The notes under the pieces: generated by a model
Told to the model about the DNA's origin: nothing
The model's input: the letters and a program-made list of their open reading frames with translations, nothing else
The model's database searches: none
Source: Mariniflexile litorale
GTDB taxonomy: Bacteria; Bacteroidota; Bacteroidia; Flavobacteriales; Flavobacteriaceae
Assembly (NCBI RefSeq): GCF_031128465.2
Contig: NZ_CP155618.1
Coordinates: 319,501-383,500, forward strand
Direction of reading: 5' to 3'
Length of the DNA: 64,000 bases
Shown here: positions 3,382-39,783 of the stretch, piece by piece
How positions within the stretch are numbered: position 1 is the stretch's first letter
How the letters are laid out: each line of letters begins with the position of its first letter
Made by a program: the position numbers and the translations under genes

Positions 3382-5319
3382 TTAAAAATAATAACGCTTA
3401 AATGCCTCAATAGCAGCATAATCTGCTAATCCTAAATCATTATATTTTTTTGCCGTTTCTCTATTTCTATCTTCAACACGTACCCAAAACTCTCTAGAAT
3501 CATCTCCTTGAAACATAACACCATCTTTTTGAGATTGGTGATAAAAAATAGCGTGTCGCTTTTTAAGAACTTGATCTGGACTCATAGGAACAGCCATCTC
3601 TATTTGCGAAGATTCCCACTCATGCCATGCGCCACGGTATAACCATACCCAACAATCATCCATGAAAGGTTTAGGTTTCAATATCTTTAATGCTTCGAAT
3701 AAACTATCTAAACAAACTTTGTGAGTTCCATGAGGATCGGCTAAATCGCCTGCTGCATAAATTTGATGTGGTTTTATTTCTTCAATAAGATGACACATGA
3801 TTTTTATATCGGCTTCAGAAAGATTACTTTTTTTCACAGTTCCTGTTTCGTAAAACGGAAGGTCTAAAAAATGAACGTTTTCATCAGTAAGCCCTATGTA
3901 TCTAGTTGCAGCTAAAGATTCACTTCTTCTAATTAAACTTTTTAGTTTTCTAACCTCAATAGAATCAATATCATTTTCAGATTTATTTTTTAAAAAATCT
4001 ATAATTTGCTGTGACTCAGTTGATTTTGAATTGAAAGCCATAGATATTTCAGCAAACTTTAAAGCTTCCTCATTAGAAACTGCAATATTTCCCGAAGTTT
4101 GATATGCCACATGAACCTCGTGTCCTTGTTCTACTAATCTATCAAATGTACCTCCCATGGAAATGACATCGTCATCGGGGTGCGGACTAAAAATAATCAC
4201 TCTCTTTTTTGCTGGTGTAGAACGTTCCGGTCTATAAGTATCATCTGCATTTGGTTTTCCTCCTGGCCAACCTGTGATGGTATGTTGTAATTTATTAAAC
4301 ATTTTAATGTTTAAATCATAAGCAGTGCCTTCTTCTGTTAAAAGGCTAGCCATACCATTATCATTATAATCCTTATCTGTAAGTTTAAGAAAAGGTTTAT
4401 TTGTTAATTCACTTAACCAAACTACAGCTTTCAGTTTTAATTCATCAGTCCAAATACATGATTTTACAAGCCAAGGTGTTTTTACTCTTGTTAATTCTGA
4501 TGAAGCTTCACTATCTAAAACAAAGGTTGTGTTATTATGCTCTTGTAAATAAGTTGCAGGCACTTGTGAAGTTACGTCGCCTTCTATAGTTTTCTTTAAT
4601 ATTTCAGCTTTACTAATTCCCCAAGCAAGAAGCACGATACGTTTAGCACTTCTTACGGTACCTATTCCCATGGTAATGGCTTTTCTAGGGACGTTATCAA
4701 TACCTAAAAAAGAAGGAGCCGCATCAATACGTGTAATATGATCTAAAGTTATACTTCTTGTTCCTGAGTTAATATGAGACCCTGGTTCATTAAACCCGAT
4801 GTGACCTGTTCTGCCAATTCCCAGTAATTGAAAATCCAATCCGCCATACGATTTTATTTTCATTTCATAATCAATACAAGACTGTCTAAGTTCTTCGAAA
4901 CTTACTGTACCATCTGGAATATTAATATGTTCTGGTGATATATCTACATGATCAAAAAGATGATCGTGCATAAAGTAATGATAACTCTGAATATTATCTT
5001 TATCCATAGGATAATATTCATCTAAATTAAAAGTAATAACGTTTTTAAAACTTAAGCCTTCCTCTTTGTGCATTCTTACAAGCTCTTCATACACTTTTAT
5101 TGGTGAAGATCCTGTTGCTAAACCCAAAACACAAGGTTCATTTAATTCTTCTTTTCTATGAATTAAATTTGCAATTTCTTTTGCTACTAAAATGGAAGCT
5201 TCTAAAGAAGAATCGAAAATAACATTATGAATTTTCTCAAAACGAGTATCTTCAAATTTACCTGCTTCTTTATACCCAATTCCTTCTTTTTCCTTATAGC
5301 TGATATCTTGTTTAATCAT
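3382..5319 (-). CDS. nagB: glucosamine-6-phosphate deaminase fused to a PIG-L/LmbE deacetylase-like domain
   Basis: Protein of 645 residues. The N-terminal half (about 30-290) is a NagB isomerase-deaminase that converts glucosamine-6-phosphate to fructose-6-phosphate and ammonia. Key sites are LGLATGSSP (phosphate binding), the catalytic Asp100 in FNLDEYYP, and GIGRTGHIGFNEPGS with His173 and Glu178. Thr171 stands where the E. coli enzyme has an Asp that assists the ring-opening His. The C-terminal half (about 372-560) is a PIG-L domain with the zinc motif SPHPDDD (378-384) and ADPHGTHK. Fusions of this kind are, as I recall, common in Bacteroidota, and the second domain's substrate is not certain. 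It may handle N-acetyl groups on GlcNAc derivatives. The gene is the last of the leftward cluster, 141 bp after the GH29 gene, and would take the amino sugar released by GH89. Confidence 0.88.
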   Translation of the reverse strand: MIKQDISYKEKEGIGYKEAGKFEDTRFEKIHNVIFDSSLEASILVAKEIANLIHRKEELNEPCVLGLATGSSPIKVYEELVRMHKEEGLSFKNVITFNLDEYYPMDKDNIQSYHYFMHDHLFDHVDISPEHINIPDGTVSFEELRQSCIDYEMKIKSYGGLDFQLLGIGRTGHIGFNEPGSHINSGTRSITLDHITRIDAAPSFLGIDNVPRKAITMGIGTVRSAKRIVLLAWGISKAEILKKTIEGDVTSQVPATYLQEHNNTTFVLDSEASSELTRVKTPWLVKSCIWTDELKLKAVVWLSELTNKPFLKLTDKDYNDNGMASLLTEEGTAYDLNIKMFNKLQHTITGWPGGKPNADDTYRPERSTPAKKRVIIFSPHPDDDVISMGGTFDRLVEQGHEVHVAYQTSGNIAVSNEEALKFAEISMAFNSKSTESQQIIDFLKNKSENDIDSIEVRKLKSLIRRSESLAATRYIGLTDENVHFLDLPFYETGTVKKSNLSEADIKIMCHLIEEIKPHQIYAAGDLADPHGTHKVCLDSLFEALKILKPKPFMDDCWVWLYRGAWHEWESSQIEMAVPMSPDQVLKKRHAIFYHQSQKDGVMFQGDDSREFWVRVEDRNRETAKKYNDLGLADYAAIEAFKRYYF

Positions 5320-5460
5320 TTATTGGTTTCTTTACATTATTGATATAAAATTACTTACTTAAGTCTTCTCAAAATCAAAAATTTCGACTAATAACCAATG
5401 TACTTCGGCAAAGGAATATTTTTTATAAAACCATCCATTTAAACATCTTTTGGTGTTTAT

Positions 5461-7554
5461 CTATTTTTCCATGACACTAATTTCTCCAATGGTAACACTG
5501 TTACCATTTCCTATGGCAGACACAGCCACAAAACGCATATATCTAGTTTCTAAAATATTGAATGTTTTTATTTGTTCTGTAGGATTGTTTTTAATATTTG
5601 AAAATTCTCCTTCAGCCTGCTTCGTCCAATTTTTATTATCCAAACTTGTGTAAAATTTGTAGTTAGAAATGAGATTTAAATTGCCACCTATTTGTTGTGG
5701 AAAATATTTAAACCCATTTATCTTTTGTTTAGCCCCCATATCAACAATTATTTCTTGAGGAAGTTTATTTTTCTCATCTCCCATCATCCAAGTTGTATTT
5801 GGATCGCCATCAATAATTTTATCGACTTTTTTTAAATCTCCACTTGTAGCAAAAATTACTTTCCAGTTTTCTTTAGACTTACCAAAACGCGCTGTATTAA
5901 TAGTGCTGCTAACATTTTCAGTTGTATTATAAGCTATTGCTTTTATTTTTAAAGCATTAGTGTGTTTAAATGGTATATTATATAATGTACTTTGAATTGT
6001 TGGTTGAGAACCATCAATAGTATAGTATATTTTATTGTTATTTTCAGCTTTTATAACGACGACTCCTTTTTTATTTCTTTGTATTACAGGAGAATAAACT
6101 AAAGTAGGTGCGTTATAAGCTTTAATTGCAGATATAACAAGGCTTGCTTTGGAATTTGTAATATTCACTCTAAGAGCAGTCGCTTCAACCCTTGGTATTC
6201 TTAATATTCTTTTATACCCAATAGTAGTCTCATTGGCTACGGTTTGCCATTTTCCATCTACTCTTGCTTCAACATTAAATTCTTTTACACGTTGGCCGAG
6301 TTTAATAGATTCTTGCAAAAGAATACGGTTTATAGCTGTAGGTTTTTCAAATTCAAATAAAACAGAAGCCGTTTTAACAGTATCGTCTGTTGCCCAATAG
6401 GTTTCCTTATTTGTATCTACTAAATTATTTACTGAATACAAATCATCATCACCTCGAACATTATCTGCTGAAATTTTGCATCCTGAAAGCAGTTCATTTT
6501 TAAAATCTGTTTTAATGATTGCTGTTAATTCTTTTAATCTAGCTTCGTCATTTTCATTAACAAGTCCTCTTTTATCTACAGGAAGGTTTAATAAAAGATT
6601 TGCGTTTCTTCCTATAGATTCATAATAGATATCTACCATGTCTTCAATTGGTCTAACTTTATCATCTTCAATGGCATGATAAAACCAACCTGGTCTTATT
6701 GAAACATCTGCTTCTCCTGGAACCCATTTTTCACCATCTTCATGCCCAGACATAAATTCTGTGTAATGTACTTTTCCTGCTAATTCATCTTTTTGGCGAA
6801 GTAAACTCCAATTTGTTTTACCCGCTCTTCCTTCTTCGTTTCCTATCCAACGTGCTTCAGAAGGGCCAACACCCCAGACTAATGTTTTTGGTGCAATTTC
6901 ATATATCATTTTATAAGTTTCATCCCAATTGTAATACTCAAGAGTGTTTATTTTTCTTGTTTCATTAGCACCTCCATAATAACCATCTCCACCATTAGCA
7001 CCATCAAACCAGATTTCAAACACGTCTCCATAGTTGGTCAACAATTCTTTTAATTGATTTCTGAAATATGTAATATAACCTGGCTTTCCATATTCTGGAT
7101 GATTTCTATCCCAAGGTGAAAGGTAAATTCCTAATTTTAAACCGTATTCTCTACAAGATTCGGCTAATTCTTTAACGACATCTCCTTTACCGTTTTTCCA
7201 AGGTGAGTTTTTTACGGAACGTTCTGTATAATCTGAAGGCCATAAACAAAAGCCATCATGATGTTTGGCTGTTATTATAATGCCTGTCATGCCAGCTTCT
7301 TTTGCAATACGAGCCCATTGTTTAGTATCTAAAGCGGTAGGATTAAATAATTTGGGCGATTCATCGCCATAGCCCCACTCTTTATTTGTAAATGTGTTTA
7401 ATGAGAAATGTACAAAAGCGTAAAACTCCATTTCGTGCCAACTTAATTGTTTTTGAGATGGTGTAGGGCCATATGCTAAAGGCGGCTTAACTTGCTCTTT
7501 ACAGCTATTTAAAAGAAGAAGGCTAAAAGAACAAAGTATAACAAGCTTTTTCAT
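5461..7554 (-). CDS. GH29 alpha-L-fucosidase with C-terminal discoidin-like domains
   Basis: Exported lipoprotein of 697 residues (signal ending LLLLNSC, followed by K-E, an acidic pattern compatible with surface display). The GH29 TIM barrel spans about residues 30-345. It shows LFNPTALDTKQW, the motif AKHHDGFCLWPS, and EIWFDGANG with Asp184 as the expected nucleophile of this retaining family. The motifs resemble the subfamily that acts on alpha-1,3/1,4 fucose. After the barrel come an F5/8-type C (CBM32-like) domain (about 350-455), a short chitobiase-C-like segment (IYYTIDGSQPT) and a second discoidin-like domain (about 555-695). It sits between the HGSNAT-like gene and nagB, with gaps of 227 and 141 bp, and may have its own promoter. 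It would trim fucose decorations. Confidence 0.9.
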   Translation of the reverse strand: MKKLVILCSFSLLLLNSCKEQVKPPLAYGPTPSQKQLSWHEMEFYAFVHFSLNTFTNKEWGYGDESPKLFNPTALDTKQWARIAKEAGMTGIIITAKHHDGFCLWPSDYTERSVKNSPWKNGKGDVVKELAESCREYGLKLGIYLSPWDRNHPEYGKPGYITYFRNQLKELLTNYGDVFEIWFDGANGGDGYYGGANETRKINTLEYYNWDETYKMIYEIAPKTLVWGVGPSEARWIGNEEGRAGKTNWSLLRQKDELAGKVHYTEFMSGHEDGEKWVPGEADVSIRPGWFYHAIEDDKVRPIEDMVDIYYESIGRNANLLLNLPVDKRGLVNENDEARLKELTAIIKTDFKNELLSGCKISADNVRGDDDLYSVNNLVDTNKETYWATDDTVKTASVLFEFEKPTAINRILLQESIKLGQRVKEFNVEARVDGKWQTVANETTIGYKRILRIPRVEATALRVNITNSKASLVISAIKAYNAPTLVYSPVIQRNKKGVVVIKAENNNKIYYTIDGSQPTIQSTLYNIPFKHTNALKIKAIAYNTTENVSSTINTARFGKSKENWKVIFATSGDLKKVDKIIDGDPNTTWMMGDEKNKLPQEIIVDMGAKQKINGFKYFPQQIGGNLNLISNYKFYTSLDNKNWTKQAEGEFSNIKNNPTEQIKTFNILETRYMRFVAVSAIGNGNSVTIGEISVMEK

Positions 7555-7781
7555 GGAAATATTTATTTTTTTAATAAATGCTAAAGTCTATAAAAGATTT
7601 ATCTAGAACGTATTATTTCGACAAACAACAATTTTAAAATGTATTTGGAACACTTTTTTTGAAGATAAACTATCATAATGCTATAAATATTCTAAAATAA
7701 TTAATTCAAGCCATTCTAAAAAATCTCATGATTTTATGATTGATTTCAATTGAAACCACTAAAGGCAAAAAACATTGATAA

Positions 7782-8921
7782 TTATATTTTAATATAAACT
7801 CTTTTCTTGTCAAGCCACCATCCTAACGACCAAGATAATAACATAAAAACTGTTGCTGTAATTAAAGCTCCAAATGAACCAGGAAATATATTCTGAAAAA
7901 CATTTTCACTGACCCATTCAAAAAGATCCATGCCTGAACTTGTTTTAATATGACGTAAAACGATATAAAACAACTCAGAAAACAAATAAATAAACAAAGG
8001 ATTCTTTCCGAAAACCTCAAAAAAAGTAACACCAAACTTTACTTTTTTTATTTCCATTAAATAAATCAAAATTGCCATTATAGATAAATCTAATCCTATG
8101 GTGTATATAGTGAATGAACTCGTCCATAGCTTTTTTGAAATTGGAAATATTAAATCCCACCAAAGTCCTAAAGCTGTTAAAACAAAACCTGCAATAAGTA
8201 ACTTAGAAATACCTTCAAAAGTCTTTCCTTTTTGTTGCACAAAAACTCCTGCTACAAATCCTGCAACAACATTTACAATAGCGGGTAACGTACTTAAAAC
8301 ACCTTCAGGATCAAACGGAATACTGTCTTTTTTGTAAATATGACCTTCCCCTAACAGGTATAAATCCAATTTAGTAACGGCATTAGTAGCCATATTTAAA
8401 ACCCCACCTGAGTCGCCAAACATATATAATATTGCCCAATAACCTAACAGAATAATTCCTGATAAAATTAACGCCATTCTTTGTGATAGGGAATAGAAAA
8501 TAATAGATGTAAAAAAGTAGCATAAAGCAATACGTTGCAACACGCCCATGATACGAGTCTCGCTAATTGGCTTTAGTTCCCATGATCCATCTACTTGTTG
8601 AAAAAATGGAAACCAATACATTAAATATCCTATCAAAAAAATAAGAAACGTTCGTTTTAATATTTTTTTCCAAACACTTCTGGATGAAGCTGATTTTAGT
8701 TTTCCAATTGAAAAACTCATGGCATTACCCATGGCAAATAGAAATGAAGGAAACACTAAATCAGCAAGTGTAAATCCAAACCAATTGGCATGTATCAAAA
8801 AAGAGTACAAGGGAGCTCCAGTACCAGGTGTGTTAACAACAATCATTAAACAAATGGTTAAACCTCTAAAAACATCAAGCGACAAAAACCGATTAGATTC
8901 TTTAATACGTGCTACTTCCAT
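7782..8921 (-). CDS. HGSNAT-like transmembrane N-acetyltransferase (DUF5009/NagX family)
   Basis: Polytopic inner-membrane protein of 379 residues with about ten hydrophobic segments. It begins with the family signature SLDVFRGLTICLMIVVN. A second signature, HANWFGFTLADLVFPSFLFA, follows; its His44 aligns with the active-site histidine of human heparan-alpha-glucosaminide N-acetyltransferase. The human enzyme passes an acetyl group from cytosolic acetyl-CoA to terminal alpha-glucosamine on the far side of the membrane. That allows alpha-N-acetylglucosaminidase (NAGLU, GH89) to act. A GH89 gene is present in this locus at 20.7 kb. The start lies 12 bp after the SSS symporter stop, so the two are clearly co-transcribed. 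The acceptor here is not proven, and many bacterial family members have no known substrate. Confidence 0.82.
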   Translation of the reverse strand: MEVARIKESNRFLSLDVFRGLTICLMIVVNTPGTGAPLYSFLIHANWFGFTLADLVFPSFLFAMGNAMSFSIGKLKSASSRSVWKKILKRTFLIFLIGYLMYWFPFFQQVDGSWELKPISETRIMGVLQRIALCYFFTSIIFYSLSQRMALILSGIILLGYWAILYMFGDSGGVLNMATNAVTKLDLYLLGEGHIYKKDSIPFDPEGVLSTLPAIVNVVAGFVAGVFVQQKGKTFEGISKLLIAGFVLTALGLWWDLIFPISKKLWTSSFTIYTIGLDLSIMAILIYLMEIKKVKFGVTFFEVFGKNPLFIYLFSELFYIVLRHIKTSSGMDLFEWVSENVFQNIFPGSFGALITATVFMLLSWSLGWWLDKKRVYIKI

Positions 8922-8933
8922 TTATCAGATGAT

Positions 8934-10511
8934 TTAATTTGTTCCCAATAGCACATAGATTAGAACAGTAACCGCACACAGAGAAATTGCCATAGGTTTG
9001 GTGTATTTCCATGCTTTAATTTCTACTATATGTAAATCATCTTGATTAAATTCTTTATTTGAAGGGTATAAATAAGACACACCAAACATAACAGCTAGAT
9101 TTAATAAAAACTCTATTCCCCAAATATGCACAAAGTGGATATCAACCTTAAAAACAAAAGTTGTTAAAATATAAAATATAAGTCCTACAAACAGTGCTAC
9201 TTTGGCTCCCGTTGCTGATACTTTTTTAAGAAAAAACCCAGCTAACATAATAGAGGCTATAGGTATAAAGAATATACCATTTAATTGCTGTAGTAATTGG
9301 TATAAACCATCTGGTGCATTGGCTACCATGGGTGCGACTAATATGGCGAATATAGCTAAAACAGTTGTGGTTAATTTACCGACTCTAACTAATTTAATAT
9401 CTGTACAATTTTTTTCTAAATGCGTTTTATATATATCTATACTAAAAATAGTTGCAGCACTATTTAGTACACTATTAAATGTGCTTAACACAGCCCCTAA
9501 TACTATAGCTGCAAAAATACCGACTAAGCCTACTGGCAATACTTTTTTAATAAGCTCTGGATAAATCATATCTTGATTATCGTACAGAGAATCACCGAAA
9601 TAATAAAAACCAATTACGCCTGGTAGAATAATGATGATTGGAACTAATATTTTTAAAACCCCCGTAAAAAGCAGTCCCTTTTGTGCCTCAACTAAATTCT
9701 TTGCACCAAAAGCACGTTGAATGATGGTTTGATTCATGCACCAAAAATAAATTTGATTTATAATTAAACCTGTAAAAAGTACTTCAAAAGGTAATACGGA
9801 ATCTTTTGATCCTATCACGTTAAACTTTTCTGGACTGTTCTTGTAAACTTTGCTTAAACCTTCTAACGGATTTCCATCACCTATACTTAATAGTGCCAAT
9901 AATGGAATAAGAAGTCCTCCTATTAACAGGCCATAACCATTGATGGTATCTGAAATAGCCACCGCTTTTAACCCTCCAAAAATGGCATAAACAGAACCTA
10001 AAACACCTATAAGTACAACGGTAATCCATAAACCTTCATCTTTAGAAACTTCTAAAACTTCAGAGATATTGAATATGCTTTCAATATTTATTGCTCCTGT
10101 ATAAAGCACTATAGGGAGCAAGGTTACTATAAATGAAATCATTAAAAATAATGCTACTAAAGTTCTGGTTGCATTATCAAATCTCTTTTCCAAATATTGA
10201 GGAATTGTAGTAAGCCCCATTTTTAGATATTTTGGAATAAAATAAATAGCAGCAGCCACTAAAGCTAATGCCGATGTTACTTCCCAAGCAATAATTATAA
10301 AGCCATTTTTATAAGATGACCCATTCATACCTATAAGATGTTCGGTTGAGATATTTGTAAGTAACATAGAACCTGCAATAACAACGCCTGTTAAACTTCT
10401 GCCACCAAGAAAGTAACCATCTTTTGAGGCTAGCTTTTCTTTTCTAAGTTTAAACCAAGAATAAAAAGCAACAAAAGCCGTGAAGGCTATAAAAGTAATA
10501 ACAGTATACAT
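8934..10511 (-). CDS. sodium:solute symporter (SSS/SGLT family), candidate inositol or sugar importer
   Basis: Integral membrane protein of 525 residues with about 13-14 transmembrane segments in the SSS (SGLT) fold. Typical family stretches are YFLGGRSL near the N-terminus, TIPQYLEKRF, and the long helix with GLKAVAISDTING. The family couples Na+ entry to uptake of sugars, inositols, uronates or other small solutes. Sequence alone does not fix the substrate. The gene lies 103 bp after the inositol oxygenase gene and 12 bp before the HGSNAT-like gene. This context makes myo-inositol (as in mammalian SMIT proteins of the same family) the most economical guess. An N-acetylhexosamine or glucuronate is the main alternative. 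Confidence 0.88.
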   Translation of the reverse strand: MYTVITFIAFTAFVAFYSWFKLRKEKLASKDGYFLGGRSLTGVVIAGSMLLTNISTEHLIGMNGSSYKNGFIIIAWEVTSALALVAAAIYFIPKYLKMGLTTIPQYLEKRFDNATRTLVALFLMISFIVTLLPIVLYTGAINIESIFNISEVLEVSKDEGLWITVVLIGVLGSVYAIFGGLKAVAISDTINGYGLLIGGLLIPLLALLSIGDGNPLEGLSKVYKNSPEKFNVIGSKDSVLPFEVLFTGLIINQIYFWCMNQTIIQRAFGAKNLVEAQKGLLFTGVLKILVPIIIILPGVIGFYYFGDSLYDNQDMIYPELIKKVLPVGLVGIFAAIVLGAVLSTFNSVLNSAATIFSIDIYKTHLEKNCTDIKLVRVGKLTTTVLAIFAILVAPMVANAPDGLYQLLQQLNGIFFIPIASIMLAGFFLKKVSATGAKVALFVGLIFYILTTFVFKVDIHFVHIWGIEFLLNLAVMFGVSYLYPSNKEFNQDDLHIVEIKAWKYTKPMAISLCAVTVLIYVLLGTN

Positions 10512-10522
10512 AAGTGGTTAGT

Positions 10523-10549
10523 GGTTTAGTTGGTTTAGTTGGTTTATGC
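10523..10549 (-). repeat. three tandem GGTTTAGTT-type 9-mers in the symporter leader
   Basis: Two perfect copies and one imperfect copy of GGTTTAGTT lie directly before the symporter ATG. In coding sense the leader reads as repeated AACTAAACC. It is A/C-rich and lacks a Shine-Dalgarno sequence, as is common for Bacteroidota. Copy-number slippage here could alter translation, but that is speculation. Confidence 0.5.
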
Positions 10550-10614
10550 TACAAAGTACTAGGGCATCATTTACCCTAAGCACCTCATAACATGATTTAT
10601 CGAATTATTAAAAT

Positions 10615-11487
10615 TTAAAATCTCAATTTTTCTGGCAAATATTTGGATACTAATGCTTTGTAATAAGGTAGTAATGCTTTTACATCTGGTTTAACAGGTG
10701 CTTTAGTGTATAAATCGTAAGGATTAAACTTTCTTACCCATTCAAACATTTCAATATCTTTATCATTCATTAAATGTGCATAAGCATTGTCTCTATGTTG
10801 GGAGTAAAACGAATGAAATCTAATCATATATAATGCTGGCTCTGGTAAATAATCTTTCATTATTTGATACAGATATTCATCGTGACCCCAACTCATTTTG
10901 ACATTATCAAGTCCGCAATTCTCTTTATAAACACCAAGTTTCGTGTTAAATTTGGGGTTTATATAATCTGGGTTTTCTTTAAAAAACTCTGAATACACAA
11001 TCTTATCTGAATAAGCACATCCTACAGGAAACGTATCGCCTACTACAGCCCATTGTGGTTCTCCAAAAAGACATAAAACTTTCCCTAAATCATGTATAAA
11101 TCCAGTAAGCACAAACCAATCGGGGTGACCATCTGCTCTAATAGCTTCAGATGTTTGTAAAAGGTGTTGTGTTTGATCTAAATCTATATCTGGATCACTA
11201 TCATCTACAAGTGTGTTTAAAAACTCTACAGCTTCCCAAACAGACATTTCTTTTCTATCAAATTTTAGAAACTCTTCTTCTTTACTACAAACAAAATCAT
11301 AGGTTTGGTAAATATGATTTATTCTATAAAACTCTTTAACAGTTTCTACACGTTCTGAATCTACATAATTTCTAAATTCGTCTTTTTCCTTTTTACTTTC
11401 AGATGGATCTGGATATCTCATTAACAAATCATCTTCCCATTCATCTAAATTATTTAATGGGTTATTAGAGTCTATAGACTTTTTCAT
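10615..11487 (-). CDS. myo-inositol oxygenase (MIOX)
   Basis: Soluble 290-residue protein of the MIOX family (PF05153), which uses a di-iron centre and O2 to cleave myo-inositol to D-glucuronate. All six metal ligands of the mouse enzyme can be placed: His108 (DQTQHLLQ), His132 and Asp133 (FIHDLGK), His202 (WGHDEY), His225 (IRFHSFY) and Asp258 (NPYDLY). Their spacing is almost the same as in the animal protein. Length and N-terminal region ([13 protein letters not shown]) also match. There is no signal peptide, so it acts in the cytoplasm. It is the first gene of the unit that continues with the SSS symporter. A motif shared with the SusC1 promoter lies 55 nt before its start. Its product would join glucuronate released by GH115. 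MIOX is best known from eukaryotes, so its place in a PUL is notable. Confidence 0.93.
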
Positions 11488-11542
11488 GATATTTAATATT
11501 GAAAATTAACTTATACGAAACTAAATTTTTCACTAAAGAAAA

Positions 11543-11573
11543 GGATGGATTAATACATCAAAAATATGGATAT
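11543..11573 (-). promoter_or_regulatory. candidate HTCS1 operator upstream of inositol oxygenase
   Basis: On the plus strand this site reads GGATGGA, 12 nt, AAATATGGATAT. The same two blocks with exactly the same 12-nt spacing occur at 39840-39870 before SusC1. The site ends 55 nt before the MIOX start, compared with 56 nt at SusC1. In coding sense it holds two TCCAT units 21 bp apart, a two-turn direct repeat as used by AraC-family dimers. HTCS1, encoded next door, has an AraC-type domain. The regulator assignment is inferred. Confidence 0.6.
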
Positions 11574-22925: not shown

Positions 22926-26204
<3,279 letters not shown>

Positions 26205-29681: not shown

Positions 29682-30248
29682 TCAATTATTAACAATTTCG
29701 GTTAAGGTACAATTAACGCCCAATGGGTTTTTTGCTATTTTACATATTAATGGAAACTCTGGGTTATTTAAAATCCATAATTCGGTTTCATCAATCTCTG
29801 CTTTTACAAATAAAACATCTACAATTTTGCCATCAATAACCACTTCGTTGGTCACTTTAGTTTTATCTAAATTATAAGTTGTATTGTTATAAACAAACTT
29901 GTTATTGGCCACCAAATCGCTAAATGCCGATTTAGAAATCATAAAAAAAGTATCGGTAGGTTCTAAAACTAATAAATCTGGCGATTCACCTTGGTTAAAA
30001 GTTAAACCTGTGCCATTTTGTAAAGCTTCTGGTAAAATGGCATAGGTTCGTTTTGTTTTACGTAAATCCCAATCTATAATCAGCGTATCGCCCACAAAAG
30101 TAGGACGTAAATTTACCGGTCTTGTTTGTCCGTACAATTTACAAATATATTGCAGCTCTGTGTTGTTTGTTATTTCTGGAATATGCCCTTGCGCTTGTCC
30201 TGTATTATATAGTAAGCATCCAATGGCTATTAAAATTATTTTTGTCAT
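29682..30248 (-). CDS. small secreted protein of unknown function
   Basis: Secreted 188-residue protein that I do not recognise. The open frame extends to 30305, but that would overlap the upstream GH92 gene. The ATG at 30248 begins a clean signal peptide (MTKIILIAIGCLLYNTGQAQ) and lies 4 bp after the GH92 stop, so I use it. The mature part looks like an all-beta domain: VGDTLIIDWDLRKTKRTYAI, then a middle part with FFMISKSAF and ELWILNNPEFPLICKI. Two cysteines (near the C-terminus) could form a disulfide. Its place between GH92 and the toroid protein suggests an accessory glycan or lipid binding role. This is context only. Confidence 0.7.
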   Translation of the reverse strand: MTKIILIAIGCLLYNTGQAQGHIPEITNNTELQYICKLYGQTRPVNLRPTFVGDTLIIDWDLRKTKRTYAILPEALQNGTGLTFNQGESPDLLVLEPTDTFFMISKSAFSDLVANNKFVYNNTTYNLDKTKVTNEVVIDGKIVDVLFVKAEIDETELWILNNPEFPLICKIAKNPLGVNCTLTEIVNN

Positions 30249-30252
30249 TTTT

Positions 30253-32529: not shown

Positions 32530-34875
32530 TTATTTTGTTTTGGTAGATACTGGTATTGAATTATTATTAGCTTCTTTAGTCATTTTTAAAAGCAATGTGC
32601 CTCCATTCGTAATATCACTATGTTTTATACTGAAATTGTCTATCTTTTTATTATTGAAATCAACAGCATTTATATACAAATTTTCTGTGGAATTTTTTTC
32701 TGCTTGAATAACAAATTCTTTTCCAGAATAATAATCTGAATTTAATTTTATAGTTATTTTATTGAATAATGGACTTCCTATTTGGTACTCTGGATTTTCT
32801 TCAGTTCCTCCATTCATTTGAAACAATCCTATTTTCATTAATACGGCTAAACTTCCCATTAAGCCTTGATCTTCATCACCATTATAACCTGTTGCAGGCG
32901 ACAAACCTGAAAATACATTTTTAACAACCTGTCTAGACCAATATTGTGTTAAATCTGGACGCCCCATTTTATTAAAAATAAATGCGGTTTGTATTGAAGG
33001 TTGATTTCCGTAGTTAATTGGTATTCGGCTATACTCTGGGTGTAACTCTGCAGCATGCGATGTACCTGAAGTAAATTTTAATGTTGCGGCCGTTTCAAAT
33101 TGCTTATTTAATTTTTCTACAGCTTTTGTATTTCCACCCATTAAACTAGCTAAACCTTCTATATCGTGAGGCACAAACCAAGTAGATTGTGCGCCATTAG
33201 ATTCTATAAATCCGTTTTCATATTGATAGGGATCAAAGCCTTCTCGCCATACACCATGTTCATTTTTAGGACACATCCAGCCTAACTTTTTATTAAAAAT
33301 GTTTTGGTAATTTTTAGATCTATTCAAAAAGTAATTATAATCATCTTCATACTTTAATTTCTTAGCTAATTGGGCTAAAGTCCAATCTTGGTAAGCATAC
33401 TCCATCGTCTGACTAGCACCATCTTGATGTATTCCAAAATCACCTTCGGGTAATGGGTATGGCACATAACCTTTGTCTAAATAATATTTTAAGCCGCCGC
33501 CCATATTTGTATTATGTTCATATCCTGCTTTTCCCATAATACCATTAAGCATGTGATTTTTTTTAAGCGCAACATACATGGAATCTAGATTTTCTTTTAT
33601 TAACCCTTTTTGAATAGCACTTATTATAAAAGGTGTAGATGAAGCCCCCGTCATGACATACGTATAATTCCCTCCAGAAGGCCCTCGCGGAACTAAACCA
33701 CCATCTTTATAATATTGCATTAAAGATTGGGTAAATTCTTCCATCATTTCTGGATAGACTAATCCCCAAAGTGTGTTGATGGTCCATTGTGCACCCCAAA
33801 AAGAATCGGAATTATATTGATTGAATTTAGGTCTACCATCATTACCCAGTGGTATTTGACCGACTCTGAATTTCTCTCCAGTATTGTCTGGATAAGCACC
33901 ATTATAATCACTAATAGTTCTACGCCCTTGTAAGGCGTGCCAAAGATCTGTATAAAATCTTCTTTGATCGGTTTCTGTGCCTCCTTCAATTTTAATTCTT
34001 GACAATAAATGATTCCATTCTGTTTTTGAATCTGATACTATTTTATCAAAATTCCAATGTGGCAATTCTTCTTGAATATTGTTATTTGCATTTTCAATAG
34101 ATGTATATGAAATACCAACTTTCATTAATACGTCTTGATTTAATTTTTTCAAATGAATCAAGTAATTTTTTGTAGCACTATCTTGTTCTATTGACGAGAT
34201 AGGTGTATCTAATTTTATTTTAAAAAATAAAGTGACTGTTTTTGGACGTCTGTGTGTAGGTTTCATCACTAACTGCCCTGATAATTCTTTTTCATTATCC
34301 TTATTTAAAATACCATCAAAATTTTCTGATGGCCCTAATAATGTATTTAGGTTAAAAAGGATTGCTTTATTAGTATTTGGGGTTAAAAAAGAGTGCTTAT
34401 GAAAGCCAACTCTTTTGGTACTCGTTAATTCTGAAGCTATATTGTATCGGTCTAATTTCAAATAATGATAACCGGGTGATACTTTTTCTGTATCATGGCT
34501 GAATTTTGAATAAAAATCTGAAAAAATACTTTTCTTATTTTTGTTATTAACTATGACAGGCATTATAGAAAGACCCGACATTTGCCAAGCATGAATGTGG
34601 CTAAACCCTTTAATAGTATCTGTTTTATACTTATAACCACTGCCCCAAGCGCCATTTATCTCAGTATCTGGACTTAAATTCACCATTCCGAAAGGTCGGC
34701 TAGCTGAAGAAAAGAAAAACCATCTAGAATTTTCTGTATCAAGCAATGGGTACACTTTATCTACTAAGTGTGCTTCCTTAACTTGTTGCTGTTCCTCTTT
34801 TTTACATGATGCTAGTAAAATAAAAACTAAGCTTATACTGATGATTACTTTTATTTGAACTCGATTTAATTTCAT
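32530..34875 (-). CDS. GH92-family lipoprotein (copy c, divergent)
   Basis: Lipoprotein of 781 residues (IFILLASC, then K-K-E-E, compatible with surface display). It is clearly GH92 by SRPFGMVNLSPD, GFSHIHAWQMSGL, the helical domain segment FYTDLWHALQGRR, VPRGPSGGNYTYVMTGASS and NGDEDQGLMGSLAVLMKIGL. The N-terminal signature lacks the usual GTGGHG run and reads VYPLLDTENSRWFFFSSA, so the substrate pocket may differ from copy b. It is the first enzyme gene after SusD1, 208 bp downstream and past a stem-loop, so its mRNA level may be set by partial termination. Catalysis is likely alpha-mannosidase, but the divergent signature leaves room for another alpha-hexoside. Confidence 0.85.
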   Translation of the reverse strand: MKLNRVQIKVIISISLVFILLASCKKEEQQQVKEAHLVDKVYPLLDTENSRWFFFSSASRPFGMVNLSPDTEINGAWGSGYKYKTDTIKGFSHIHAWQMSGLSIMPVIVNNKNKKSIFSDFYSKFSHDTEKVSPGYHYLKLDRYNIASELTSTKRVGFHKHSFLTPNTNKAILFNLNTLLGPSENFDGILNKDNEKELSGQLVMKPTHRRPKTVTLFFKIKLDTPISSIEQDSATKNYLIHLKKLNQDVLMKVGISYTSIENANNNIQEELPHWNFDKIVSDSKTEWNHLLSRIKIEGGTETDQRRFYTDLWHALQGRRTISDYNGAYPDNTGEKFRVGQIPLGNDGRPKFNQYNSDSFWGAQWTINTLWGLVYPEMMEEFTQSLMQYYKDGGLVPRGPSGGNYTYVMTGASSTPFIISAIQKGLIKENLDSMYVALKKNHMLNGIMGKAGYEHNTNMGGGLKYYLDKGYVPYPLPEGDFGIHQDGASQTMEYAYQDWTLAQLAKKLKYEDDYNYFLNRSKNYQNIFNKKLGWMCPKNEHGVWREGFDPYQYENGFIESNGAQSTWFVPHDIEGLASLMGGNTKAVEKLNKQFETAATLKFTSGTSHAAELHPEYSRIPINYGNQPSIQTAFIFNKMGRPDLTQYWSRQVVKNVFSGLSPATGYNGDEDQGLMGSLAVLMKIGLFQMNGGTEENPEYQIGSPLFNKITIKLNSDYYSGKEFVIQAEKNSTENLYINAVDFNNKKIDNFSIKHSDITNGGTLLLKMTKEANNNSIPVSTKTK

Positions 34876-35083: not shown

Positions 35084-36715
35084 TTAATTATTGTAATTAG
35101 GATTTTGTGTAATACTACCTCCTGTATTATCAATTTCTGTTTGAGGAATCGGTCTTAAAAGGTGCTTAGCTTGAAGCGCATCATTTAATTCTGCATGCGG
35201 ATTATGTAATAAAACACGCTCAATTAATTTTCCTGTTCTTTTTAAATCCATCCATCTATTAACTTCTCCTGCTAATTCTCTAGCTCTTTCGTCTAGTATA
35301 AAATCAAGATTTACTTCTGCAGGTAATACTGGTGTAATTAAACCTGCTCTAGAACGTAACGTTGTAAGACGCGCAGCTGCATCTATTGAATTATTTGATT
35401 TAAAATAAGCTTCAGCCGCTATTAAGTAAGCTTCACCAGCACGCATCATAACCATATCTCTTTCTCCAACAGAAGGTTGATCTGGTTGTGTAAAAGGAAT
35501 TGATGGATCTGCAAATTTTATAAACTGTGGGTAATGTACAGGTGTTGTTCCGTCATTTGTAAAATAAGTTCCCGGATTGAAAACCACATATGGTACTGCT
35601 GCTATCTCAGCTGGTGTCCATGCTACTTTAGGAAAATATATAGCTCTTTCCCCTGCTGAAACATTTGCACCGTTTTTCCCTACATAATCTACAGTAGCAA
35701 GAATTTCTCTACTAAAAGTCGCTTCAGCTCTAGTGTCGTTATCTTCATAAAGACTATAATAAAAAGGTGTAGGCATTGGATCTAGACCTTTAAGAGTTCT
35801 TGTCAAACCTGGGTAATCAAAAAAGCGAAACTGGTACAACATATGTCTTGAGTTACCCCAACCTCTGCTTACAGAATTACTTCCGAACAAATAAGAGAAT
35901 ACCACCTCAGAATTTCTTTGATTGGTTATGCTTACCAAACTTGCAAATGATGGTACTAAATTATGATTAGCTATAACCGTTTCTGCTAAAGTTGCTGCAT
36001 CTGTAAAATCGTTAGCCGCTGCAAATGATTTATAACCTCTAGTTAGTAATACTTTAGACGTAAGGTGTCTTACAGCATCTTTAGATACTCTTCCAAAAAC
36101 AGTTGGAGTTTCTAATACCCCTGCAAGAGCATCTTGAAGGTCTTGTACTATTTGTGTATAAACTTGTTCTTCTGTAGCACGAGTATAATCTCTAGTAGCA
36201 GTTATAGCTCTTTCAAGTATTAATGGTACCCCACCATAATTCTCAACTAATTTAAAATAAGCCCAAGCTCTAAAAAATTTAGCTTCTGCGATTCCTCTAT
36301 TTTTATCTGTATCTGAAAGACCTTCAATATCTTCTAACTCTTGTTCAGTAACTAAATTAGCTGCAGCAATGATACTATATTGATTTTTCCAATATACACG
36401 TACTACATTATTTAGTGGCGTTAAATTCACATAATCATTAAGATCATTAGTACCAGTAATAGCAGTACCTCTTGTTACAATATCGGTACCTATATCTTCC
36501 AAAGAATAGTACATATTTGATTCATAATATGTTGTAGTTTCTCTAGATCTTTCATATGCAGAAGCTACCAACTGACCGAAAATAGTGGGATCTGTTTTTA
36601 TATTATCTACACTTAACGATGAATTGTTTTCTTCCTCGAGAAAACTCTCACAACTTGTTATGGAAGCACCAGTAACAAGTAAAATTAAAATTAATTTATA
36701 GTTTATATATTTCAT
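35084..36715 (-). CDS. SusD-like glycan-binding lipoprotein (SusD1)
   Basis: Outer-membrane surface lipoprotein of 543 residues. The signal ends in ASITSC and is followed by E-S-F-L-E-E-E, a typical surface-export pattern. The SusD/RagB fold is shown by the TPR region (AEAKFFRAWAYFKLVENYGGVPLILE), ATEEQVYTQIVQDL, RHLTSKVLLTRGY and the C-terminal block ERDMVMMRAGEAYLIAAEAY with ILDERARELAGEVNRWMDL. SusD proteins cap the SusC transporter and capture the oligosaccharide. It follows SusC1 by 23 bp. Unit B enzymes are encoded downstream. Confidence 0.95.
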   Translation of the reverse strand: MKYINYKLILILLVTGASITSCESFLEEENNSSLSVDNIKTDPTIFGQLVASAYERSRETTTYYESNMYYSLEDIGTDIVTRGTAITGTNDLNDYVNLTPLNNVVRVYWKNQYSIIAAANLVTEQELEDIEGLSDTDKNRGIAEAKFFRAWAYFKLVENYGGVPLILERAITATRDYTRATEEQVYTQIVQDLQDALAGVLETPTVFGRVSKDAVRHLTSKVLLTRGYKSFAAANDFTDAATLAETVIANHNLVPSFASLVSITNQRNSEVVFSYLFGSNSVSRGWGNSRHMLYQFRFFDYPGLTRTLKGLDPMPTPFYYSLYEDNDTRAEATFSREILATVDYVGKNGANVSAGERAIYFPKVAWTPAEIAAVPYVVFNPGTYFTNDGTTPVHYPQFIKFADPSIPFTQPDQPSVGERDMVMMRAGEAYLIAAEAYFKSNNSIDAAARLTTLRSRAGLITPVLPAEVNLDFILDERARELAGEVNRWMDLKRTGKLIERVLLHNPHAELNDALQAKHLLRPIPQTEIDNTGGSITQNPNYNN

Positions 36716-36738: not shown

Positions 36739-39700
36739 TTAAAAGCTTAAATTAATACCAGTCATGATTGTACGAGACATAAAAGCAGCTCCCCATTGGT
36801 CTCTTCCTGCATTTTCCGGATCCCATCCATCAAATTTTGTTATTACAAAAGGATTTTGTACCGTAGCGTAAATTCTTAAACTCTTTGCTTTAAGCTTATC
36901 TAAAATTGAAGATGGAAATTTATAACCTAAAGTCATATAGCCTACTTTTACAAATGAAACATCTTTGTAATGTGCGGCAGAACCATATTCTCCTGGGTTA
37001 CCTGGTTGGTACCATTCATTTGTAGGGTTTTCAGGCGTCCAATAATCTACATCATATCCATTAAAAGTTCTATTAGGTTGTTCTTGCCATCCCCATGCAT
37101 AATTACTATGGAAATTACTTCTGTACATGTTACCTTGACTAATGTTAAGTAAAAAAGAGAAATCAAAGTTTTTATAGTTCATAGTATTAGTAAAACCTCC
37201 TGTCCATTTTGGAGTAACTTGCCCTATTACTTTTCTATCTGCAGATGTAATATCTCCACTTTCATCAACATCTGTCACTCTTACTTGACCAGGACGTTGA
37301 CCAAATGTTGCTGCCTCTGCAGCCTCATCAAGTTGCCATATGCCTGCAAACTCATAATCGTATACGGCCCCAATTGGTTCTCCTACTTTATGTATAAGAT
37401 TAGTACCACCAACATTAAAAATAATTTCATCATTTTGATATAATTTATCAAGTGTATTTTTATTAGATGCGAAATTAAAATTTGTGGTCCATCTAAAATT
37501 CTCATTATCAACATTCACCGTATTTATTCCTATCTCGATACCTTTGTTACTAGATTCACCTACATTACTAAAAGTTCCATCATAACCAGATACTGCTGAC
37601 AATGGAGTGAAGAATATAATATCAGTATTTTTTCTATTATAATAATCAATGGATCCATTGATTTTATTGTTTAAAAAACCAAAATCAATACCTACATTTA
37701 TTTCAGTAGTTTTTTCCCAAGTAAGATCAGGATTGGCTAAGCCACTAACATAAGCTGTTGACACAGAATTATCTCCTAAATTAACGGCATTGTTATCTAA
37801 TAACGATTGTGATGCTAAAGGAACAAGCCCTCCTCCTTGGCCATTATTACCTGTTTGTCCATAACTCAATCTAAGCTTAGCATTAGAAAATGTTTGTTGA
37901 TCTTGCATAAAATCTTCATCCATTATCTTCCAAGCAAATGCTGCAGATGGGAAAAATGCCCATTTATTCTTATCGGAAAGGATAGAAGCACCATCATAAC
38001 GCCCTGTAAAAGTGAATAAGTATTTATCCATAAGAGTATAATTAATCCTACCCGTATAAGATTCTAATGTTTGTTTAGAAAAATCACTTGAAACTTCTCT
38101 AATGTCTAGTCCTGCATCCAAGTTATAAAACGTAAACTCATCTGTGCTGAAGTTTCTAACTTGATTATAGTATCCTTCTTTACGTTCTAAAAATCTTGAA
38201 ACAACTCCAGTTACATCTAAAGCATGAATACCTTTTTCGTACTTATAATTGAAAATATTATCCCAAGAATAAGAGAAGTAATTTGAATTATTTACTTGAG
38301 CTCTTCTGTTTGCAGGATTACCACTTACACTTTTAGAATATAATGCACGATATTCTCCAAATCTATTATACTTAATATTTGGTGAAAATTTTGTAGTAAC
38401 AGTCAAACCTTCTAAAGGAGTAATTTGTAAAGCTATATCTCCAATGTACTGTAAAAACTTGTCCTCTCTAATTTCATTTTCAGCCTCAAATAATGGATTT
38501 GTTATCTGAGTTTCCTTGCTTGTTGGAAAAAAACGTAAAGATCCATCTGCGTTATAAGGACGACCTATAGGTTTTAATCTGTAAGCACTTCTAAATCCTT
38601 CAAAACTTCCTTGGTTTTGAATAGCGGTAGTAATATAGTTACTAACGCTTATATTTAACCATTTGGTAAGATCACTTTTTAAACTTCCTCTAATATTATA
38701 TCTTGTATAATCTTCTCCTCTGGCTGTTCCTTCATCTTTAGTATATGCCATACCTGTTGAAAAGGTTGTAACATCATTTCCTCCACTTAAACTAATAGTA
38801 TGATTCGTTTGAAAACCATTATTAAGCATTAGGTCTATCCAATCTGTGTCTACACCATCAGCAACATTTTGTAATTCTTCGGCATCTAAATAATCAGATA
38901 AATTAACATCACTTGCTCTGTAGCTAAGATTCCCAGTAGGTGAAGCAAACACACCACCAACAGCAGCATCTTTTATAAGCTGTAAATATCCAGAAGCATT
39001 AAAAACAGATGGTAAATGATAAGCCTGTTTAAAGCCTATATAATTACTATAATCAACCTGTAACTTACCACTTTTACCACGTTTGGTTTCAATTAAAACC
39101 ACACCATTACTTCCTCTTGACCCATATACAGCTGTTGCTGAAGCATCCTTAAGAATGTTCATACTGCTAATATCAGCAGGATTCAAGAAAGAAATATCAT
39201 CAACAAAAATTCCATCTACAATGAAAAGTGGATTTTGCCCTGGAGTAAATCCATTTGCATTGTTAGAATTAATAGTACTCGCTCCACGAATACGTATATT
39301 AAAACTTCCTCCTCCAGGTTTGTTATCTGTACGTTGAATAACAACCCCTGCTGTTTGTCCTTGTAACGCAGAAATAGCATCTACCTTATTAGCTTGATCT
39401 ATTTGCTTAGAACTAATTTGAGCTACTGAACCTGTTAAATCACTTTTCTTTACAGAACCGTAACCAATAACAACGACTTCATCTAACTGAGCTGCATCTT
39501 CCGTTAGTTTTACATCAAACTTCGAATTACCATTATAAGTAAGTTCTAATGTTTCGTAACCTAAATAAGAGAACACAAGTACATCACCTGATTTCGCTTT
39601 AATTTTATAATTGCCATCAAAATCTGTAGCACTACCAGTTGAAGTACCTTTAACAATAACATTAACTCCTGGTATTGGAACGTTTTGATTGTCTGTCACA

Positions 39701-39783
39701 ACACCAGAAACATCGCTTTGTGCCCATGATGTTGATGATAAGCCTATTATTAAGGCTATCATAAAGAGTTTAATTTTACCCAT
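36739..39783 (-). CDS. SusC-like TonB-dependent transporter (SusC1)
   Basis: Outer-membrane transporter of 1014 residues. Signal peptide to about residue 21 (TSWAQ), carboxypeptidase-regulatory-like domain (about 24-100, VSGVVTDNQNVPIPGVNVIV), a TonB-box-like stretch DEVVVIGYGSVKKSDLTGSV, plug domain (about 110-230, with ILKDASATAVYGSRGSNGVV) and a beta-barrel to a terminal Phe (ITMTGINLSF-like ending). It imports oligosaccharides using the TonB complex. It is the first gene of the Unit B operon. A motif shared with the MIOX promoter lies 56 nt upstream of its ATG, which suggests HTCS1 control. Confidence 0.96.
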   Translation of the reverse strand: MGKIKLFMIALIIGLSSTSWAQSDVSGVVTDNQNVPIPGVNVIVKGTSTGSATDFDGNYKIKAKSGDVLVFSYLGYETLELTYNGNSKFDVKLTEDAAQLDEVVVIGYGSVKKSDLTGSVAQISSKQIDQANKVDAISALQGQTAGVVIQRTDNKPGGGSFNIRIRGASTINSNNANGFTPGQNPLFIVDGIFVDDISFLNPADISSMNILKDASATAVYGSRGSNGVVLIETKRGKSGKLQVDYSNYIGFKQAYHLPSVFNASGYLQLIKDAAVGGVFASPTGNLSYRASDVNLSDYLDAEELQNVADGVDTDWIDLMLNNGFQTNHTISLSGGNDVTTFSTGMAYTKDEGTARGEDYTRYNIRGSLKSDLTKWLNISVSNYITTAIQNQGSFEGFRSAYRLKPIGRPYNADGSLRFFPTSKETQITNPLFEAENEIREDKFLQYIGDIALQITPLEGLTVTTKFSPNIKYNRFGEYRALYSKSVSGNPANRRAQVNNSNYFSYSWDNIFNYKYEKGIHALDVTGVVSRFLERKEGYYNQVRNFSTDEFTFYNLDAGLDIREVSSDFSKQTLESYTGRINYTLMDKYLFTFTGRYDGASILSDKNKWAFFPSAAFAWKIMDEDFMQDQQTFSNAKLRLSYGQTGNNGQGGGLVPLASQSLLDNNAVNLGDNSVSTAYVSGLANPDLTWEKTTEINVGIDFGFLNNKINGSIDYYNRKNTDIIFFTPLSAVSGYDGTFSNVGESSNKGIEIGINTVNVDNENFRWTTNFNFASNKNTLDKLYQNDEIIFNVGGTNLIHKVGEPIGAVYDYEFAGIWQLDEAAEAATFGQRPGQVRVTDVDESGDITSADRKVIGQVTPKWTGGFTNTMNYKNFDFSFLLNISQGNMYRSNFHSNYAWGWQEQPNRTFNGYDVDYWTPENPTNEWYQPGNPGEYGSAAHYKDVSFVKVGYMTLGYKFPSSILDKLKAKSLRIYATVQNPFVITKFDGWDPENAGRDQWGAAFMSRTIMTGINLSF

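Follow-up and report, generated by a model that had tools for sequence, protein, structure and literature searches.

Which substrate could call for a bacterial locus that carries, on a single strand, a SusC/SusD pair, two putative alpha-mannosidases, an alpha-N-acetylglucosaminidase, an alpha-glucuronidase, a metallophosphoesterase (MPE) and a myo-inositol oxygenase (MIOX)? Such a locus is present in Mariniflexile litorale (Flavobacteriaceae; assembly GCF_031128465.2, contig NZ_CP155618.1), in a stretch of 64,000 nucleotides (contig positions 319,501 to 383,500) that is here called the window and whose own positions are used for all its coordinates. The operon occupies positions 3382-39783 of the minus strand and is read leftward, from SusC to a NagB-LmbE fusion. 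The gene content, the conserved gene order and co-localisation in related genomes, the clade structure of the GH115 enzymes and the remnant of a phospholipase gene argue for a polysaccharide utilization locus (PUL) dedicated to inositol-phosphate glycans, probably the head groups of plant-type glycosyl inositol phosphorylceramides (GIPC; sugars-Man or GlcN(Ac)-GlcA-inositol-P-ceramide, in which Man is mannose, GlcA glucuronic acid, GlcN glucosamine and GlcNAc its N-acetylated form). That the substrate is an inositol-phosphate glycan of some kind is proposed with greater confidence than its assignment to GIPC.

According to the parts of the literature drawn on here, plant GIPC are built of ceramide, phosphate, inositol and GlcA extended by a further sugar, which may be mannose, glucose, GlcNAc or GlcN, the outer sugars being arabinose, galactose, mannose and fucose; in barley grain, GlcN-type forms, which carry a free amine, made up the largest proportion (PMC12201980). 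GIPC were described as accounting for as much as about 45% of the lipids of the plant plasma membrane, and the presence of GlcA on inositol phosphorylceramide (IPC) was called plant-specific (PMC9113257).

The initial annotation had described a leftward cluster of GH92 proteins, GH89, GH115, MPE, MIOX, a Na+/solute symporter (SSS), an HGSNAT homologue and NagB, and all of these families were recovered in Pfam and NCBIfam scans of the window proteins and by PDB matching, in what is one SusC/SusD locus. SusC, SusD, two GH92, GH28, GH2, GH89 and GH115 are encoded on the same strand, as in SusC/SusD-type PULs, and a PUL-type regulator, the hybrid two-component system protein HTCS1 (11610..15653; Pfam Reg_prop, HisKA, HATPase_c, Response_reg and HTH_18), lies inside the locus.

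The MIOX protein (10615..11487), in which no signal peptide was seen by eye, matches PF05153 over positions 2-249 of 249 (E 1.8e-111) and can be aligned with mouse MIOX across residues 18-288 (E 2.3e-88); a block of 22 residues and the DLYTK block, conserved by eye between the two proteins, presumably carry the metal ligands. The SSS gene (8934..10511; PRK10484, 722 bits) is linked to it, and UxaC and UxuA are each encoded by two copies elsewhere in the genome, outside the window, so that both uptake and catabolism of inositol are represented by homology. In a survey of 397 genomes of the family, we obtained 64 whole-domain MIOX matches in 62 genomes (one of them, G006, with internal stops), which split by score into 31 window-type (362 bits or more) and 33 other-type (313-327 bits) proteins. 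The window-type proteins are 72-90% identical to that of the window, versus 45-49% in the 20 other-type proteins that were read. Hexuronate genes were observed in 12 of the 31 window-type stretches. The second type, clade B, is informative about the symporter: in the surroundings of 20 of its 33 members (L091-L110, one stretch being just 7.5 kb), a SSS gene 62-66% identical to that of the window stands directly beside MIOX in every case, and these 20 stretches gave no match to GH92, GH89, GH115, HGSNAT or MPE, with SusC matched in four, SusD in one, NagB in one and the esterase half of an esterase/PI-PLC protein (see below) in one. The simplest reading of these neighbourhoods is that the MIOX-SSS pair of clade B is a free-inositol module outside iol clusters, and therefore that SSS is an inositol transporter which the PUL shares; the symporter of the window is thus a probable inositol transporter.

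A different picture emerged around the window-type genes. In the same 397 genomes, GH89 was matched in 29 and GH115 in 56 genomes (E<=1e-20 for both), and PI-PLC-C1, a Ca-dependent phosphatidylinositol phospholipase C (PI-PLC), in 30 (E<=1e-10). The 31 window-type MIOX genes have GH115 no more than 30 kb away at 16 loci, PI-PLC-C1 at 15 and GH89 at 11, against the approximately 0.58, 0.33 and 0.16 loci, respectively, expected from uniform placement (calculated with rounded genome sizes), and against 0, 1 and 0 loci around the 33 other-type genes. These loci share descent and were collected by way of MIOX, and the counts therefore speak for a maintained linkage, not for independent events. In the reverse view, a window-type MIOX stands at most 30 kb away from 15 of the 33 PI-PLC-C1 matches (30 of the 33 being full-length) and from 11 of the 33 GH89 matches; MPE, searched in 110 genomes, was found at 11 loci in 10 genomes, four near window-type MIOX, one near PI-PLC and the other MIOX type, three near PI-PLC without MIOX, and three near neither.

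Both SusC and GH92 accompany 23 of the 31 window-type genes, and these were considered core loci. Their content is largely shared: HTCS1 (22), SSS (22), MPE (20), GH115 (16), the more distant GH115-like family (8; at least one of these two in 20 loci), PI-PLC (14 by ORF matching, 15 by six-frame search), GH28 (12), GH89 (8), HGSNAT (8), GH29 (7) and GH125 (5), with GH28, GH2, GH125, GH29 and GH3 varying between loci. GH89, present in only eight, is therefore optional. The remaining eight window-type loci have no GH92 in the stretch read; three of them (G297, G144 and G329) are considered below, and four of the other five show SSS. A co-occurrence of MIOX, GH89 and GH115 near SusCD had been put forward as a check on the initial annotation, and its outcome was positive: in the family, window-type MIOX does travel with SusCD, GH92, GH115, PI-PLC-C1, the phosphoesterase and SSS. 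GH115 is present in 16 and GH89 in 8 of the 23 core loci, and two loci with GH115 of the same clade, GH89 and HGSNAT are in genomes without full-length MIOX (G100 and G117).

The phospholipase had been announced as a remnant, and a remnant does exist. PI-PLC-C1 proteins of related loci match positions 20674-20531 (minus strand) with 50-70% identity over 45-48 residues (tblastn, E down to 1.9e-16), which corresponds to the end of the Ca-dependent PI-PLC. Only C-terminal residues are matched: about 48 codons remain of a PI-PLC-C1 (PF16670) gene that is nowhere complete in the window, and Pfam and NCBIfam scans of the window ORFs did not detect them. The ORF at 29682-30305 (207 aa) was rejected as a candidate for the remnant, since the PI-PLC proteins match 20531-20674 instead. 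The remnant sits between GH89 (20698-22920) and the GH115 of the locus (GH115a), ending just before the GH115 start at 20524. In the ten related loci in which PI-PLC and GH115a are both called as ORFs, an intact PI-PLC is always directly upstream of GH115a (gaps of 3-52 nt), and six-frame searches place PI-PLC alike in an eleventh, G339. Because the remnant occupies the position at which relatives keep an intact PI-PLC, the window locus most likely once carried the full gene and lost it.

The same genome retains one intact PI-PLC-C1 elsewhere (C1:3349464-3350441). Its locus (L191, G000:C1:3340000-3359999, 4216-13063) holds a SusC-like gene and its neighbour, PI-PLC-C1 and then an MPE-like sequence spread over two adjacent frames, with a GDPD-type domain in the upstream frame; the counterpart in G014 is a single frame of 865 aa. 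In three other genomes (G207, G323 and G335), an esterase (BD-FAE/alpha-beta hydrolase) is fused to PI-PLC-C1 in proteins of 612-617 aa encoded just upstream of GH115a. Acetylated GIPC heads were found in another plant, according to the part of that report used here (PMC11496612), and it may be, as a guess, that the fusion is tied to such heads.

GH115a (17561..20524) matches both the catalytic and the C-terminal domain of GH115, PF15979 over positions 2-335 of 335 (E 2.3e-131) and PF17829 over 1-172 of 172, and is followed by the MPE gene (15707..17533; Metallophos, E 6.1e-10), whose product has a lipobox pattern. A tree was calculated with 59 of the 85 GH115 matches, the other 26 and the characterised xylan and arabinogalactan enzymes lying outside it. 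The 18 GH115 proteins from loci of this kind (those of G100 and G117, and 16 from loci with MIOX) form one clade (SH-aLRT 100), apart from the 41 other GH115 proteins of the family, including the second GH115 of the window. Since the 18 had been picked beforehand by similarity clustering, the tree addresses whether others fall among them, not their alikeness. Only one of the 17 GH115 genes within 30 kb of a window-type MIOX is outside the clade (G115:C22:211510). GH115a adjoins MPE in all 14 loci with both, and the order PI-PLC, GH115a, MPE is kept over many genera. A distant GH115-like family of about 685 aa (L043:11730-13781 and seven other loci; Pfam GH115, E 8.7e-19) was identified in eight MIOX loci, in four of which it occurs without GH115a, and is possibly a functional stand-in for the latter.

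The clade and its fixed neighbours also bear on whether the locus is an arabinogalactan, pectin or xylan PUL with the inositol genes as unrelated passengers. GH115, GH2, GH28 and GH29 are common in PULs of that kind, the closest solved GH115 is BtGH115A, and the GH28 resembles BT4146. Nevertheless, the PI-PLC, GH115a, MPE order over many genera, the invariable GH115a-MPE adjacency and the separation of GH115a from the 41 other GH115 proteins placed in the tree leave this explanation with very little probability.

GH89 (20698..22920), which has a lipobox pattern, matches all three NAGLU domains (PF12971, PF05089 and PF12972; Pfam NAGLU, E 4.9e-148) and the solved human NAGLU (4xwh, E 1.5e-163). 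The HGSNAT/NagX-like transmembrane glucosamine N-acetyltransferase (7782..8921) is homologous to HGSNAT (NagX_SO_3504, E 1.3e-47; human HGSNAT in the PDB, E 1.8e-22) and falls short of the NagX equivalog score (162.7 bits versus a cut-off of 480 in NCBIfam). This combination extends beyond the Flavobacteriaceae. A survey of the class retrieved MIOX (E<=1e-40) in 24 of 295 genomes, three of them belonging to the family of the window, and four surroundings were read. G475, of another family, combines MIOX, SusC and GH89 with an HGSNAT-like protein (31.6%), a metallophosphoesterase and a SusD-like protein (by position and by eye); G504 has MIOX, SusC, a SusD-like protein (again by position and by eye) and a homologue (45%) of the 598-aa protein described below; G669 has MIOX, SusC and SusD; and in G681, MIOX and a SSS gene (30.5%) are surrounded by housekeeping genes. 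Xanthocytophaga (L187) has, in succession, MIOX, HGSNAT-like, GH89, metallophosphoesterase and a GH28 piece. L239 and L187 encode phosphoesterases of PF00149 that do not match the MPE of the window at E 1e-10; it therefore seems that a different protein takes on the same step. The co-occurrence in the family, together with the MIOX-SusCD-phosphoesterase-HGSNAT-GH89 set in one genome of another family, lends support to the PUL for GIPC or GPI-like head groups proposed in the initial annotation (GPI, glycosylphosphatidylinositol).

The remaining genes of the locus are those of import, of the outer sugars and of two proteins without a sequence family. The operon starts with SusC1, a SusC-like TonB-dependent transporter (36739..39783; Pfam Plug and CarbopepD_reg_2) with homologues in related MIOX loci, and a SusD-like lipoprotein (35084..36715; SusD_RagB, E 5.6e-27, lipobox pattern). 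Two alpha-mannosidase-like proteins follow, GH92a (32530..34875; E 5.8e-135, lipobox pattern) and GH92b (30253..32520; E 3.6e-139); GH92a is a conserved core gene, its similarity cluster being present in 22 of 33 stretches (the 31 window-type MIOX loci, including the window, plus G100 and G117). Downstream of the genes for UNK207 and UNK598 are those for GH28 (26225..27793; E 2.3e-22), for which the nearest NCBIfam model is the rhamnogalacturonidase BT4146 (NF049898, 284.5 bits, below the cut-off of 500), and for a beta-galactosidase-like GH2 (22926..26195; Pfam GH2 domains and Bgal_small_N). The operon ends with an alpha-L-fucosidase-like GH29 with F5/8-type domains (5461..7554; Alpha_L_fucos, E 2.4e-38, and F5_F8_type_C) and with the glucosamine-6-phosphate deaminase NagB fused to a LmbE/PIG-L-type domain (3382..5319; PRK02122, 1067.9 bits; Glucosamine_iso and PIG-L).

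UNK207 (29682..30248, with an ATG start at 30248) is a small protein with homologues after GH92b in related loci; it has no Pfam or NCBIfam family, and its AlphaFold2 (AF2) model, with a mean pLDDT of 85.5, gave no fold match at E<=0.001 (the best, PNGase and RseB, being weak). UNK598 (27823..29619, 598 aa) likewise has no Pfam or NCBIfam match and no significant PDB match by sequence and profile search, so that by sequence it does not belong with the PL8/PL17/PL33-type lyases, which combine an alpha-toroid with an antiparallel beta-sheet. Its AF2 model, of moderate confidence (mean pLDDT of 65.7), had its best Foldseek matches in hyaluronate, chondroitin (glycosaminoglycan) and alginate lyases (E 1e-7 to 1e-6, TM about 0.4); the 53 matches at E<=0.001 also included GH127 arabinofuranosidases and epimerases. 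The invariant residues of UNK598 include Asn184-His185 and tyrosines such as Tyr225 and Tyr232, which we take to resemble lyase motifs. On the strength of the predicted fold, UNK598 is a candidate uronate lyase, and the boldest and unproven step of our proposal is that it may cut at C4 of the core GlcA, which would suit a GIPC-like head group.

How could these proteins act together? We infer every substrate, as well as the order of the reactions, from the gene families. The head group would be freed by the Ca-dependent PI-PLC (that of relatives' loci, or the one elsewhere in this genome) or by phospholipases of other organisms, and imported by SusCD. GH92, GH29, GH2 and GH28 may then trim the outer sugars, HGSNAT would acetylate a terminal GlcN and so enable its removal by GH89, MPE would strip the phosphate, and GH115 would cut GlcA from inositol, the anomers and linkage positions of the GIPC core being taken as general background. 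Inositol would be brought to the cytoplasm by the SSS symporter and oxidised by MIOX to glucuronate, which, with the GlcA freed by GH115, could enter the UxaC/UxuA hexuronate pathway; NagB would handle the amino sugar. The row formed by PI-PLC, GH115 and MPE, and then by MIOX and SSS, fits a stepwise release and use of inositol; GH92 would fit Man-type heads, HGSNAT and GH89 GlcN-type heads, and GH29 fucose. As a wider and more tentative proposal, Bacteroidota may hold a dedicated, modular system for GIPC catabolism, in which PI-PLC-C1 would be the bacterial GIPC phospholipase C, the new GH115 clade the GlcA-inositol hydrolase, HGSNAT and GH89 an optional module for GlcN-type heads and UNK598 a new family of lyases acting on 4-linked core GlcA, the head group yielding sugars, phosphate and inositol for hexuronate metabolism.

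Several observations weigh against GIPC as the substrate. The first concerns the lipid: inside the window locus the remnant is all there is of an enzyme for the lipid phosphodiester, and in four core loci (G308, G115, G164 and G211) no PI-PLC-C1 match was found in the genome at E<=1e-10. The second concerns the sugars. The GIPC structures given in the parts of PMC12201980 and PMC9113257 used here suggest no obvious task for either GH28 or GH2, and GH28 recurs in 12 of the 23 core loci, though these descriptions, as far as drawn on, name no galacturonic acid. The solved GH115 closest to GH115a is BtGH115A (PDB 5by3, 618 bits; next 4zmh, 543 bits), and BtGH115A is active on arabinogalactan, according to the report as excerpted here (PMC9063842). 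The third concerns the gene set, and here the shared descent and the MIOX-based gathering of the loci also lessen the weight of the counts. Three core loci (G317, G127 and G369) have neither GH115 nor the GH115-like gene; G297, G144 and G329 have MIOX, SusCD, GH89 and GH28 without GH92, GH115 or MPE in the stretch; and G100 and G117 keep GH115a-GH89-HGSNAT in genomes without full-length MIOX. The entry 4zmh, named an uncharacterized protein in the PDB, is presumably the Saccharophagus enzyme.

A further point comes from a set of named, mostly Flavobacterium, loci, the best 80 of 554 by similarity to the window MIOX, with at most 10 kb on each side. In view in these 80 were SSS-like (79), MPE (58), HGSNAT-like (54), UNK207 (37), UNK598 (22), GH115a (9) and GH89 (2). 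The upstream neighbour of MPE is GH115a in just 9 of the 58 loci with MPE; in the others, MPE is preceded by an ORF of 282-283 aa, UNK207, GH28, an esterase/PI-PLC type protein, UNK598 or GH29, or the stretch ends, and in 32 of the 58 neither GH115a nor UNK598 is in view. Therefore, in Flavobacterium, the GlcA step is absent from its usual place, done otherwise or unneeded, and it is not universal. This weakens GIPC for the whole locus family more than for the GH115a-bearing locus of the window. Among the named hosts are Flavobacterium strains whose names contain 'Root', as well as Polaribacter, Maribacter and Algibacter, which we take to be marine genera. The ORFs of 282-283 aa adjoin MPE in 19 named loci, and a DUF4861 protein was observed near MPE in two (L123:1345-2196, by Pfam; L112:2932-3783, alike by eye).

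The scarcity of GH115 in its usual place in many Flavobacterium loci keeps GPI-type and other inositol glycans in consideration. A GPI-anchor glycan (Man-Man-Man-GlcN-inositol-P-lipid), for instance that of plant arabinogalactan proteins, would be handled by GH92 for the mannoses, HGSNAT and GH89 for GlcN and MIOX for inositol, with GH115 acting on other chains of the glycoprotein; PI-PLC-C1 and MPE would fit as well, a second PUL with GH43, GH2 and GH115 adjoins the locus, and the MIOX and GH89 loci of G297, G144 and G329, without GH115 in the stretch, point the same way. GPI has no alpha-GlcA, yet 16 of the 23 core loci, including that of the window, carry one GH115 clade (20 of 23 carry GH115 or the GH115-like protein), and GPI degradation would need GH89, for which 15 of the 23 have no gene in the stretch. 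Sequence in general does not divide GIPC from GPI; the window's own GH115 favours GIPC, and we regard a GPI glycan as an unlikely substrate here. Less likely again is a different inositol-phosphate glycan (a fungal or algal IPC-type sphingolipid, or an undescribed inositol glycolipid), degraded by the same enzymes in another sugar order. The presumably marine hosts, whose algal food lipids are poorly known, and the variation of GH28, GH2, GH125, GH29 and GH3 between loci are compatible with it, whereas the presence of GH115 in 16 of 23 core loci argues against it, as does GlcA on IPC being plant-specific in the excerpted text of PMC9113257. Moreover, Zostera noltii is among the monocots with GIPC in the part of PMC12201980 used here, and marine hosts are therefore compatible with plant GIPC. 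We assume Zostera noltii to be a seagrass. A glycosaminoglycan locus, suggested by the pairing of HGSNAT with GH89, as in lysosomal heparan sulphate degradation, and by the lyase-like predicted fold of UNK598, was rejected, since a scan of 29 window proteins at E<=0.001 revealed no sulfatase family and since heparan, in which GlcA is beta-linked, would offer no role to MIOX, MPE, PI-PLC or an alpha-glucuronidase.

Plant-type GIPC head groups are thus retained as the probable substrate. The second SusCD locus next door (40178-57321) comprises GH115, GH2 and GH43 together with a DUF2264 protein and a LamG/ricin-B lectin that bears a Por secretion tail, is accompanied by an HTCS at 57771-61892 (plus strand), and is probably an arabinogalactan-type or other PUL. 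It was rejected as a part of the system, no DUF2264 or LamG homologue being labelled in the relatives' stretches; these do hold GH2 genes like the GH2 of the second PUL (about 40-47%) and weak GH43 matches. At 61990-63999, a GH2-type protein is cut by the window edge (best NCBIfam model, exo-beta-1,4-galactosidase BT4151, 632.7 bits, below the cut-off of 1500). On the other side, a sensor histidine kinase and a LytTR response regulator (1396-3221, plus strand) are encoded between the PUL end and an additional GH92 gene (3-1274), also cut by the window edge.

If the assignment is right, this locus family tells which bacteria eat GIPC head groups, provides enzymes with which the structures of a difficult class of glycolipids could be studied, and gives a substrate to a GH115 clade and to a PI-PLC family. 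It would also mean that Flavobacteriaceae can use inositol by the oxygenase route rather than by iol clusters, and that a PUL can have a membrane lipid head group as its target.

Among the papers listed by searches of the open literature, none was seen, from titles and abstract openings, to deal with a dedicated bacterial gene cluster for GIPC head groups, and the text of PMC9246714 has no inositol oxygenase and no phospholipase C. Comparison is possible with several known systems. The proposed input of the locus is what the phospholipase C of Botrytis cinerea, GIPC-PLC1 (BCIN07g04350), produces: the enzyme splits plant GIPC into ceramide and inositol phosphate glycans, and the fungus was recently shown to free head groups in the course of infection, among them Hex-uronate-inositol-P and larger ones (PMC11496612). 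That enzyme differs in being fungal and annotated as a sphingomyelinase, and catabolism of the freed glycan is not described in the portion of the report used here. BtGH115A of Bacteroides thetaiotaomicron, of 783 residues versus 987 in GH115a, was reported to act on arabinogalactan and not on xylan, with a linkage questioned by later authors; inositol is unmentioned in the sections consulted (PMC9063842).

Homologues of both members of the lysosomal HGSNAT-NAGLU pair are present in the locus. In heparan sulphate degradation, HGSNAT N-acetylates terminal alpha-GlcN, which is then removed by GH89; the pair of the window differs in being bacterial and encoded beside MIOX and GH115, its substrate presumably being GlcN-GlcA-inositol. 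Bacterial iol clusters also catabolise myo-inositol, whereas the window locus would use the MIOX route. In the part of the inositol survey drawn on here, iol clusters occur in 2% of 810 Flavobacteriaceae species and inositol oxygenase is named once, for a yeast (PMC9430895); whole-domain MIOX is present in 62 of our 397 genomes, one of them with internal stops. Finally, the locus has the same SusCD pair, HTCS and train of glycoside hydrolases on one strand as the SusC/SusD-type PULs of Bacteroidota, to which it adds a phosphoesterase, PI-PLC (in relatives), MIOX and a probable inositol symporter, and its proposed target is a lipid head group instead of a wall polysaccharide.

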